A DNA stretch of 64,000 bases from Halanaeroarchaeum sulfurireducens. GTDB lineage: Archaea > Halobacteriota > Halobacteria > Halobacteriales > Halobacteriaceae. Positions within the stretch are counted from its first letter, which is position 1. Each line of letters begins with the position of its first letter. The stretch is from assembly GCF_001011115.1 (NCBI RefSeq), contig NZ_CP008874.1, positions 1,502,440 through 1,566,439 on the forward strand, written 5' to 3'. Made by a program: the position numbers and the translations under genes. The notes below the pieces were generated by a model. It did no database searches, was not told the origin of the DNA, and saw only the letters and a list, made by a program, of their open reading frames with translations. Below are positions 16,908 through 59,852 of the stretch, piece by piece.

Positions 16908-17047
16908 GGGCCGGAGGGATGTTGAACCACGCCCGAGAACCTGCGTTCCGCAGAACCTCGGTCTGGTTCAAATCCCACCCCCATTCTCTCGGCGGCGCCA
17001 ATCGCGAGCGACGGACCAGTCGCTCGCGATTTCAGTTAGTGAGAGAA
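16908..17047 (-). repeat. tRNA-Trp tail element (inverted and direct copies of the tRNA 3' end)
   Basis: Reading away from the tRNA on the minus strand: a spacer with a 13-bp hairpin (17000-17012 with 17019-17031); an inverted copy of the tRNA T-arm and trailer (plus-strand GGTTCAAATCCC at 16965, CCATTCTCTC at 16981-16990 pairing with GAGAGAATGG at 17041-17050); a short hairpin (CTGCG-ttc-CGCAG); then a direct copy of the 3' end (plus strand GGGCCGGAGGGAT, one extra G, TTGAACC, 16908-16928). The same layout follows tRNA-Glu and tRNA-Leu. Confidence 0.75.
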
Positions 17048-17224
17048 TGGGGCCGGAGGGATTTGAACCCCCGATCGACTGATATCTCCGGCGCGTCTCG
17101 GAACTCCAGAGGGTCGTCACCGCGGCCGATGATCAGTCCGCCGCTCGGTATACCAGTCTGGAATGTCGTCCCGGACGCTGTGACCTCTGGAGTCAGTCGC
17201 CCTGCCTGGCTGGGCCACAGCCCC
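17048..17224 (-). tRNA. tRNA-Trp (CCA) with a 103-nt intron
   Basis: Exon 1 is 17187-17224 and exon 2 is 17048-17083. Acceptor GGGGCTG pairs with CGGCCCC plus discriminator A; the D-stem is GCCC/GGGC, the anticodon stem ACTGA/TCAGT with loop CTCCAGA (anticodon CCA), and the T-arm is GGGGG-TTCAAAT-CCCTC. The intron (17084-17186) is 103 nt, inserted after position 37, matching the known haloarchaeal tRNA-Trp intron that acts as a box C/D guide. A CTGA box, a GTGACGA box and CTCTGGAG, complementary to the anticodon region, are visible. CCA is not encoded. Confidence 0.95.
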
Positions 17225-24704: not shown

Positions 24705-24816
24705 TGCTCCGTCAGGGATTTGAACCCGATGGCAAATCCTCACTTCGTTCGGATTCGCGTGGCTCAAATCCCTTCCCTGCGCGCTTCGCTCCCTCGAAAA
24801 AACTCGGTCGCTGTAG
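24705..24816 (-). repeat. tRNA-Glu tail element (inverted and direct copies of the tRNA 3' end)
   Basis: Reading away from tRNA-Glu on the minus strand: about 37 bases of spacer with a T-run, an inverted T-arm copy (plus-strand GGCTCAAATCCCTTCCCTG, 24761-24779), a hairpin (AAATCC...GGATT, 24732-24758), and a direct copy of the last 23 bases of the tRNA (24705-24727, identical to 24817-24839). Total 112 bp. The layout matches the elements after tRNA-Trp and tRNA-Leu. Confidence 0.8.
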
Positions 24817-24891
<75 letters not shown>

Positions 24892-57435: not shown

Positions 57436-58083
57436 ATGTCCGACGAAGAACCTACAGACACCGAGGCGAACGAGGCAGAGGGCGTTGAGATCCCGGTCGA
57501 TACCGAAGAAGGCGATACGGAGGCGGGCGGCGGTGCCCGCGAACGGCTCGAGGAGGAGGCCGACCGCGCGCGCTCGGAGTTCGACAGTCGCGTCGTGGAC
57601 ATCCTCTCCTGGGTGCTCGACACCGAGACGCGAGCCCGAATCTACGTCCAGTTGCGGAAGGCTCCGTGGAGCACGAGCGAGGAGGTGGCCGAGGGGACTG
57701 GGCTCTACCCGAGCACCGTCCGGGAGGCGCTCGCCGAGCTGTACGACGAAGGCGTGGTCGATCGCCGGAAACGAGAGAGCGAGGGCGCAGGCAACAACCC
57801 CTACGAGTACACGGCCATCGCCCCGAGCGATCTCGTCGGGAACGTCGTCGGGCGGGTGCAGGACGAACTGAATACGCTGTTCAATCTCGATTCCCATCTG
57901 GAGGAATCCGAGCCCACCTCCGAACCGACCTCCCAACCGGTCTCCATCGAGGTGTCCTCTGAGGACGAAGAAGACGAAGAGGGTGAAGAGGAAAACGTAG
58001 AGGGTGAAGAGGAAGACGTAGAGGGTGAAGAGGAAAACGTAGAGGGTGAAGAGGAAGACGAAGAGGGTAAAGAGGAGAGATAA
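57436..58083 (+). CDS. Winged-helix (ArsR-like) regulator with acidic repeat tail
   Basis: A 215-residue DNA-binding protein. After an acidic N-terminus, residues 55-130 form a winged helix (DILSWVLDTETRARIYVQLRK; TSEEVAEGTGLYPSTVREALAELYDEGVV). Residues about 150-215 are disordered and acidic, ending in four 7-residue repeats (EGEEENV/EGEEEDV) and EGKEER, then TAA. The same frame stays open for 30 more acidic codons past the TAA to a TGA at 58174, suggesting the stop is recent. Confidence 0.85.
   Translation: MSDEEPTDTEANEAEGVEIPVDTEEGDTEAGGGARERLEEEADRARSEFDSRVVDILSWVLDTETRARIYVQLRKAPWSTSEEVAEGTGLYPSTVREALAELYDEGVVDRRKRESEGAGNNPYEYTAIAPSDLVGNVVGRVQDELNTLFNLDSHLEESEPTSEPTSQPVSIEVSSEDEEDEEGEEENVEGEEEDVEGEEENVEGEEEDEEGKEER
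57979..58080 (+). repeat. 21-bp coding repeats in the regulator tail
   Basis: Four 21-base units (57979-58062) coding EGEEENV, EGEEEDV, EGEEENV and EGEEEDE, then a partial EGKEER. Units 1 and 3 end AAC-GTA; 2 and 4 have GAC. The alternation implies a 42-base higher-order repeat that duplicated once. Antisense frames here are open by chance. Confidence 0.9.
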
Positions 58084-59119: not shown

Positions 59120-59202
59120 GCGCGGGTAGCCAAGTGGTCAACGGCGCAGCGCTTAGGACGCTGTCCCGTAGGGGTCCGCAGGTTCGAATCCTGTCCCGCG
59201 CA
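59120..59202 (+). tRNA. tRNA-Leu (UAG)
   Basis: An 83-nt class II tRNA with long variable arm. Acceptor GCGCGGG pairs with CCCGCGC plus discriminator A; the anticodon stem-loop has loop CTTAGGA with anticodon TAG; the T-arm is CAGG-TTCGAAT-CCTG. No CCA encoded, no intron. Three partial copies of its 3' end follow. Confidence 0.95.
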
Positions 59203-59323
59203 GTGAGCGAGCGTAGCGAGCGAACGAGCAGGACAGATTCGAGCCCTGTCAGTCGCAGCCCGGGAAGCGACCGAAGGGAGCGACCCGGAACGTCTGATTC
59301 CGGTTCGAATCCTGTCCCGCGCA
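59203..59323 (+). repeat. tRNA-Leu tail element, copy 1 (121 bp)
   Basis: Spacer with GAGCGAGCGTAGCGAGCG, inverted T-arm copy CAGGACAGATTCGAGCC (59229-59245), a G+C-rich hairpin-forming middle and a direct copy of the tRNA-Leu 3' end (GGTTCGAATCC...CGCGCA, 59302-59323). The inverted and direct halves pair as GGACAGATTCGA/TCGAATCCTGTCC with one bulged C. Confidence 0.85.
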
Positions 59324-59444
59324 GTGAGCGAGCGTAGCGAGCGAACGAGCAGGACAGATTCGAGCCCTGTCAGTCGCAGCCCGGGAAGCGACCGAAGGGA
59401 GCGACCCGGAACGTCTGATTCCGGTTCGAATCCTGTCCCGCGCA
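59324..59444 (+). repeat. tRNA-Leu tail element, copy 2 (121 bp)
   Basis: A tandem copy of the preceding 121-bp unit with no difference noticed by eye, again ending with the tRNA-Leu 3' end at 59444. The near-identity implies recent duplication or gene conversion. Confidence 0.85.
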
Positions 59445-59608
59445 ATGCGAGGTCGAGCATCGCGAGACCTCGGGTAGCGAACGGGGAGGAACGACCCGTG
59501 AGCAGTGAACGGAGGGCAGCGAAGCTGCCCGGAGCGAACGAGCAGGACAGCGATTCGAATCAGGGAGGAGCTGTGCTCCGACCGTGGTTCGAATCGCTGT
59601 CCCGCGCA
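59445..59608 (+). repeat. tRNA-Leu tail element, copy 3 (164 bp, diverged)
   Basis: Same plan but different spacer with hairpins GAGGTC/GACCTC and GGGCAGC/GCTGCCC. The paired arms are a perfect 15-bp inverted repeat, GGACAGCGATTCGAA (59545-59559) and TTCGAATCGCTGTCC (59588-59602), around GGAG-ctgtg-CTCC. Relative to the tRNA, one G is inserted in the direct arm and the matching C is present in the inverted arm. It ends CCGCGCA. Confidence 0.85.
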
Positions 59609-59852
59609 CTTCCACTTTTTCCGAAGCGGGTTCGCCGATGGCTCACCCGCTTCGCAAAAACGTGGGGAAAAAGACAGCTATCGGTTGCGGATATCCGACA
59701 CGACCGCAGGTCGTGTCGGGCAGAAAGTCGATCCGGGCTCCATAAAAATAAATTGGCCAACAACTATAAAGTACTGATCGTTCCCGAACTATTAGAATAT
59801 TCACACGTGTAAAGCCGTCCGGCTCTCGACATTCAAGCGAGGTGACCAATTA
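59609..59852. terminator. Two hairpins between the tRNA-Leu array and the DUF4870 gene
   Basis: GAAGCGGGT/ACCCGCTTC (59623-59631, 59645-59653) followed by CGCAAAAA, and an 11-bp stem with a 3-base loop, CCGACACGACC-gca-GGTCGTGTCGG (59695-59719), followed by A/T-rich sequence. They may end the tRNA transcript. No gene seen here; the last 60 bases carry the downstream promoter. Confidence 0.5.

Follow-up and report, generated by a model that had tools for sequence, protein, structure and literature searches.

The tRNA-Leu(TAG) gene of Halanaeroarchaeum sulfurireducens is followed on the same strand by a tandem array of three units within the 64,000-nucleotide stretch of DNA that was analysed (the window). 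From 5' to 3', a unit of this kind consists of a spacer hairpin (SL1), an inverted arm, a core hairpin and a copy of the tRNA tail. The inverted arm complements the half of the host tRNA's tail that contains the T-loop and T-stem; together with the core and the first half of the tail copy it forms a long hairpin, SL2. The features of the array and of like hairpins elsewhere in the window are given in Table 1. Two identical 121-base units end in tail copies 1 and 2, both of which are identical to the tRNA-Leu(TAG) tail, GTTCGAATCCTGTCCCGCGCA. Tail copy 3 reads GTTCGAATCGCTGTCCCGCGCA and is one base longer than the tail of the tRNA. Comparison of the arms of the third unit (copy 3) revealed that GGACAGCGATTCGAA at 59545-59559 and TTCGAATCGCTGTCC at 59588-59602 are exact reverse complements, confirming what a sequence-only reading had claimed for this element: a perfect 15 bp stem despite a difference from the tRNA, and an extra G/C pair that is missing from the tRNA itself. 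A zero-mismatch search of the window with TTCGAATCNNTGTCC returned these arms alone, and the inverted repeat extends to 59542-59565 and 59582-59605 (24 nt, 88% complementary). The range of 59545-59602 originally assigned to the element spans the hairpin and misses the full unit (59445-59608) and the array (59203-59608). The covariance model R1 matched all three units, at 59234-59313 in unit 1 (E 1.4e-10), 59355-59434 in unit 2 and 59550-59597 in unit 3 (E 2.6e-5).

Table 1. Features of the tRNA-Leu(TAG) array and like hairpins in the window.
Feature	Position	Strand	Identified by
tRNA-Leu(TAG) gene; its tail GTTCGAATCCTGTCCCGCGCA, copied downstream, at 59182-59202	59120-59202	+	ARAGORN, Rfam RF00005
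Unit 1: spacer, inverted arm (59231-59245), type A core, tail copy 1 (59303-59323)	59203-59323	+	
Unit 2, tandem duplicate of unit 1: inverted arm (59352-59366), tail copy 2 (59424-59444)	59324-59444	+	
Unit 3, spacer (SL1) region; kin to the tRNA-Leu(TAG) spacers of G003 and G009	59445-59544	+	
Unit 3, inverted arm GGACAGCGATTCGAA, with the extra C	59545-59559	+	
Unit 3, type B core hairpin TCAGGGAGGAGCTGTGCTCCGACCGTG	59560-59586	+	
Unit 3, tail copy 3, 22 nt, with the extra G; 59588-59602 pairs with 59545-59559	59587-59608	+	
Like hairpin behind tRNA-Glu(TTC) (24816-24891, minus strand)	24715-24772	-	R1; tRNA by ARAGORN, Rfam
Like hairpin behind Rfam tRNA match (17048-17224, minus strand)	16916-16976	-	R1; Rfam

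The last tail copy is followed at 59609-59725 by CACTTTTTCC ... hairpin ... CGCAAAAACGTGGGGAAAAAGACAG, a stretch with a T-run and a long inverted repeat. It recurs nearly unchanged behind tRNA-Leu(TAA) of the same genome, and in diverged form behind tRNA-Leu(TAG) in two species of another genus of the same family (G003 and G009). It is a second repeat type, located at the 3' end of arrays. Elsewhere in the window, the 177-base Rfam tRNA match at 17048-17224 on the minus strand was missed by ARAGORN and is probably an intron-containing tRNA; an SL2 hairpin lies downstream of it. The SL2 model also matched weakly at 36558-36619 (E 0.014), where neither ARAGORN nor Rfam placed a tRNA nearby; this could be a unit on its own or a chance match. 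Positions 57970-58076 hold a 42-base tandem repeat that seemingly codes for an acidic low-complexity stretch.

A sequence search for copies of the array in the host genome returned many other tRNA loci. tRNA genes with their downstream sequence were taken from four genomes, giving 44 from the host (G000), 43 from its genus mate, a sister species (G001), 42 of 44 from G003 (omitting a match at the end of a contig and one of a tandem pair on contig 2) and 42 from G009, 171 in total. Copies of the gene's own tail were found within 900 nt downstream of 88 of these genes, 152 copies in all. Tails of foreign tRNAs were found in the same downstream stretches in 844 of 7122 tests, because tRNA tails resemble each other. 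An own-tail copy lay upstream of two of the 171 tRNAs, a count taken over 200-300 nt as against 900 nt downstream and therefore over unmatched lengths. Spacing from tail to tail is mostly 68-150 nt, and the largest arrays contain six tail copies. The number of units behind a given tRNA varies: where one species has a single unit, another may have several or none. No tail copy was found within 700 nt of tRNA-Asn, Thr, Ser-GCT, Ser-GGA or Leu-CAG in the four genomes; the Leu-CAG gene of the host is closely trailed by apparent coding sequence. Behind tRNA-Arg(GCG) of the host (G000:C1:458547) there are two nearly identical units of ~251 bases, with the second tail copy decaying.

The inverted arm is typically GGATTTGAA or GGATTCGAA, depending on the tRNA, and 133 of the 152 units contain the arm motif when a single mismatch is allowed. 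A rough rule placed 47 units, behind 20 kinds of tRNA, in core type A and 28 units, behind 14 kinds, in core type B, to which copy 3 belongs; another 28 units were left without a type by this rule. Representative cores, although unlike in sequence, fold alike into a T-arm duplex, a small internal loop, an inner stem and an apical loop. The outer arm complements the 3' end of its own tail better than that of foreign tails, with a mean rank of 0.33 (p 2e-10), and pairing in SL1 was 0.61 compared to 0.49 (p 1e-9). The 15 contiguous Watson-Crick pairs of copy 3 form the longest stem among 140 distinct arm/tail units of the four genomes, for which the commonest uninterrupted Watson-Crick length is 10. 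Being the longest of 140, in a family that folds far below dinucleotide shuffles, this stem is beyond chance.

The extra pair of copy 3 had been read as covariation, a sign that base pairing is maintained by either selection or arm-to-arm conversion, and the arms of the whole family were examined for such pairing. At tail positions 4, 6, 9, 10 and 11, Watson-Crick pairs were formed in 116, 119, 105, 81 and 61 of 121 distinct arm/tail pairs, compared to permutation means of 71, 97, 74, 51 and 34, and the observed values were never reached in 500 permutations. The arms were found by similarity to tail positions 1-8, which inflates the counts at those positions and leaves 9-14 unaffected. Pairing at positions 12-14 was at permutation level, with no excess. 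Maintained pairing therefore stood family-wide at positions 4, 6 and 9-11, and did not hold beyond position 11. Orthologous tRNAs with differing tails allowed 116 comparisons. The arm fitted its own tRNA 83 times, the ortholog 17 times and neither 14 times, and two were G.U cases; the comparisons overlap and are not independent. In the sister-species subset the arm matched its own tRNA in 15 of 20 cases and the ortholog in one, and tail copies matched their own tRNA in 107 of the 116 comparisons. The clearest case is tRNA-Lys(TTT), where the host has tail GTTCAACTCC with arm GAGTTGAG and the sister species has tail GTTCAAGTCC with arm GACTTGAG, C and G being exchanged in tail and arm alike.

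Folding was compared between strands. SL2 folded better on the tRNA-sense strand in 102 of 115 distinct hairpins, and SL1 did so in 88 of 114 stretches (24 did not), while the fold-strand control gave 204 against 203 of 409 stretches. The SL2 energies had a mean z of -5.5 relative to dinucleotide shuffles, with 113 of the 115 hairpins below -2. When 35 SL2 hairpins were aligned to a hand-written structure, 89.7% of the cells paired. Their covariation score was 0.397, compared to 0.171 after shuffling (reached in 0 of 500) and at most 0.136 with the partners slid; these controls are not probabilities, the units being related by copying. Covariation above both the shuffled and the slid controls is the behaviour of a structured RNA. 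Core types are common by descent or copying, so that the units are not independent. The type B alignment contained four pairs with double changes, and the T-loop pairs comprised 52 G.U and 8 A.C combinations. The better fold of the sense strand points to RNA. A single-stranded DNA fold of that strand would also produce such a preference, and part of it may be due to tandem G.A mismatches.

The relatives of copy 3 bear on the origin of its extra pair. Behind tRNA-Leu(TAG) the sister species has a type B unit with the inverted arm GGACTGC-GATTTGAA and the tail TTCAAATCCGGTCC, and the counterparts of copy 3 in G003 and G009 read GGCACG-GATTCGAA and TTCGAATCCTGTCC. The C beside GATT in the inverted arm is common to the host and the sister species, whereas the opposing G in the tail occurs in the host only. 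The cores of the two species, GGAGC/GCTCC in the host and GAAGC/GTTCC in the sister, differ by a paired double change. As the sister species has the odd C in its arm and a tail without the G, the tail G was probably added later, or was lost there. On these sequences the extra G of tail copy 3 is probably a later correction matching an older odd C of the inverted arm; in the alternative order both bases would be older, and the sister tail would have been overwritten from its own tRNA, losing the G. The extra G/C pair is an event of one lineage. Independent divergence of the arms in related strains had been named in advance as the result that would speak against maintained pairing, and it was found for the outer arm: the counterparts of copy 3 in G001, G003 and G009 have imperfect outer arms, so that in this outer part the arms diverge independently.

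Among the 133 arm-bearing units, 27 have a deviant tail copy, which pairs with its own arm better than the tRNA tail in six cases, worse in 14 and equally well in seven; random substitution of these tail copies is expected to give 1.9 better and 20.6 worse. The possibility that deviant tail copies are generally corrected to match the arm was rejected, since six of 27 against 1.9 expected is a slight excess only. Nor does maintained pairing extend to a general rule, deviating tail copies losing pairing more often than they gain it. Copy 3 has the top pairing score of the six better-paired deviants, with tRNA-Arg(TCT) of G009 showing a slightly larger gain. One-base tail insertions also occur in tRNA-Thr of Halobellus rarus and tRNA-Arg of Natrialba sp., where the tail copies read GTTCACAATC and the tRNA GTTCAAATC, with no obvious matching change in the arm.

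Whole units and cores also differ between arrays. Units 1 and 3 behind tRNA-Leu(TAG) of the sister species are alike in spacer, arm and tail, and their cores are type B and type C respectively. A difference in the core alone indicates that cores were exchanged between T-arm-like borders, which here are GATTTGAA and GTTCAAATC. The tRNA-Glu(CTC) genes of G003 and G009 agree over 75 bases. A 102-nt unit comes next in G003 and none in G009, where the flank found after the G003 unit follows the tRNA directly (141 of 151 positions identical). This is the clean case among 13 filled/empty pairs, several of which were unalignable at the junction, and the difference could be an insertion or a deletion between tail copies. 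A similar core was found behind the same tRNA in the sister genome for 12 of 20 units (G003 compared with G009) and 8 of 19 (G000 compared with G001). In these two comparisons the retained cores are 0.97 and 0.92 identical, a figure inflated by taking only units with a core identity of at least 0.75, the spacers are 0.80 and 0.73 identical, and sequence 600-700 nt away is 0.61 and 0.53 identical.

The hairpin was found by R1 in 112 of 116 genomes of the order and in 42 of 44 genera, with at most 35 matches per genome. In a sample of the phylum, 39 of 196 genomes gave matches: 38 members of the order and one other genome with a single weak match. After five antisense duplicates were dropped, 100 non-overlapping matches were counted in four genomes (G000, G036, G084 and G109), and 95 of them have a tRNA on the same strand less than 1 kb upstream. 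Exact matches to the 30-base core pattern of copy 3 were found in 12 species of a public genome collection, including members of Natrinema, Natrialba, Halobellus, Natronomonas, Halosimplex and Haloterrigena. Each of the 12 lies behind a tRNA, these tRNAs are of eight kinds (isoacceptors), and the arm and tail are those of the local kind. One query each against the plasmid and phage collections gave no match. Rfam at gathering score reported tRNA alone in the region and no family for the hairpin.

We favour, with a probability of about 0.6, the reading that copy 3 is a unit of an RNA hairpin family forming tandem arrays in tRNA 3' trailers, with a maintained fold and recombination-driven turnover. 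It builds on the established anatomy, covariation, strand preference, tRNA placement, core-only differences between units and exact presence or absence of units. The hairpin would be transcribed along with the tRNA and fold in the trailer RNA, where selection would act on the SL2 fold. Arrays would gain and lose units through recombination between tail copies, and cores would swap among arrays at the flanking T-arm sequences. In copy 3 the inverted arm would already have had its odd base, and the direct arm would have been corrected to match it through mutation followed by selection or through template switching inside the hairpin. Template switching of this kind is the mechanism of quasipalindrome correction.

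The most likely role of the units, though one that we hold weakly, is to serve the folding or processing of the pre-tRNA trailer as a module in which the tail copies are locked in duplex. By analogy, a part in tRNA 3' processing is attractive, because Haloferax is described as cutting tRNA-like elements with tRNA-processing enzymes (PMC4326828). A masking model, in which the arms hide the tail copies so that the tRNA folds correctly, was rejected. Equilibrium folding of 72 pre-tRNAs gave a native acceptor stem value of 0.92 for the tRNA alone and 0.22 with the array, and scrambling the arms lowered the latter only to 0.15 (p 0.046), a marginal effect. Counting against the favoured reading, most outer arms are imperfect, and the retention of the same core in 12 of 20 and 8 of 19 units of sister genomes implies fast turnover for a cis-acting signal.

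Under a purely mutational origin the units would be functionless quasipalindromes that DNA template switching and gene conversion generate and keep uniform at the near-palindromic T-arm, and copy 3 would be an ordinary quasipalindrome correction. The arms and tail copies that change together with the tRNA, the exact tandem duplication, the precise gain or loss of units and the match between the direct arm of copy 3 and an inverted-arm base seen unpaired in the sister species all fit such a process. It is strand-neutral, however, and does not predict the sense-strand bias; the excess of G.U over A.C in T-loop pairs, the one core pattern exact in 12 species behind eight tRNA kinds, and the strict placement 3' of tRNAs on the tRNA strand are likewise unpredicted, making this origin unlikely. 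Alternatively, the core or the unit could be a non-autonomous mobile cassette moved by a T-arm-acting recombinase or transposase, with the tail left as a direct repeat of ~21 bp. We consider this quite unlikely, since the matches are concentrated at tRNAs instead of being dispersed, the single plasmid and phage queries returned nothing, and mobility alone leaves arms that match the host tRNA unexplained. The presence of like cores behind different tRNAs in many genera, the tandem arrays and the core exchange bounded by GATTTGAA and GTTCAAATC do suit a cassette, as does the clean pair of filled and empty sites, but recombination loss between tail copies explains empty sites equally well.

Spacing argues strongly against attachment sites left behind by integrated plasmids or viruses that had the tRNA 3' end as their attB, as tail copies mostly 68-150 nt apart leave no room for genes. 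The inverted arm and common core type that precede the copies are also unlike att duplications, about half of the tRNAs of the four genomes are affected, and the hairpin is present in nearly all genomes of the order. This origin is very improbable, even though haloarchaeal viruses and plasmids are described as integrating at tRNA 3' ends and leaving partial copies (PMC3119063, PMC8371274). Chance resemblance between a near-palindromic T-arm and nearby inverted sequence might be suspected from GGTTCGAATCC, which is near its own reverse complement, and from a looser pattern search that gave 7 matches compared to 3.1 expected, a number reached by 3 of 100 shuffles. The z-scores, the covariation at positions 9-11 and the distribution make it vanishingly improbable, and it is refuted by the arm/tail pairing permutations and the SL2 covariation score.

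A bolder proposal, which we regard as distinctly doubtful, is an undescribed, order-wide element that is confined behind tRNAs, copies the local tail, carries an anti-T-arm and spreads by swaps of core cassettes. In its boldest form the anti-T-arm would guide the element to tRNA tails, or would be rewritten from them. If the favoured reading of a hairpin family in tRNA trailers holds, nearly every haloarchaeal genome has structured RNA modules, unnamed in Rfam, behind many of its tRNAs, and the units may affect tRNA 3' maturation in haloarchaea. The units would then also lend themselves to the study of arm-to-arm conversion and compensatory change, as the expected sequence is set by the tRNA and any departure from it is recorded in the unit.

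The units share features with several known systems. RNase P and tRNase Z both act on t-elements, and tRNase Z processes the known Haloferax t-element, which is located upstream of 5S rRNA (PMC4326828). Like the t-elements of Haloferax volcanii, the units are haloarchaeal, look tRNA-derived, lie outside mature tRNAs and, by analogy, are possible substrates of tRNA-processing enzymes (PMC4326828). They differ in being tandem and 3' of tRNA genes and in having the T-loop itself paired with the inverted arm; Rfam found only tRNAs in the window. The small mobile repeats (SMR) and MITEs of Haloquadratum, described as chromosome-wide and highly conserved within type, resemble the units in being short, haloarchaeal and without coding capacity and in having inverted terminal repeats (PMC3119063). 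In contrast to dispersed insertions away from tRNAs, the units are confined to tRNA 3' flanks, with 95 of 100 matches less than 1 kb downstream on the same strand. Their ends adopt the local tRNA sequence, and instead of fixed terminal inverted repeats the arms vary with the host tRNA. Presence and absence of an element-sized piece was seen at tRNA-Glu(CTC) (102 nt), for which recombination loss is equally possible. Duplicated tRNA att sites likewise place partial, direct copies of the tRNA 3' end downstream of an intact tRNA, but the units are too short for genes, the gaps between copies (mostly 68-150 nt) hold no integrase or other mobile-element genes, and an inverted arm and core are present. 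REP/BIME sequences and integron attC sites are also tandem or alternating hairpin units with imperfect paired arms and unit-wise gain and loss. Unlike those systems, with their RAYT and integron integrase, the units fold on the tRNA-sense strand and copy the tRNA tail. No description of tRNA-tail hairpin arrays was found in open-access full text, subscription journals and preprints lying outside the search. Of the known systems, t-elements, small mobile repeats and att-site duplications come nearest, and the units lack a defining feature of each.
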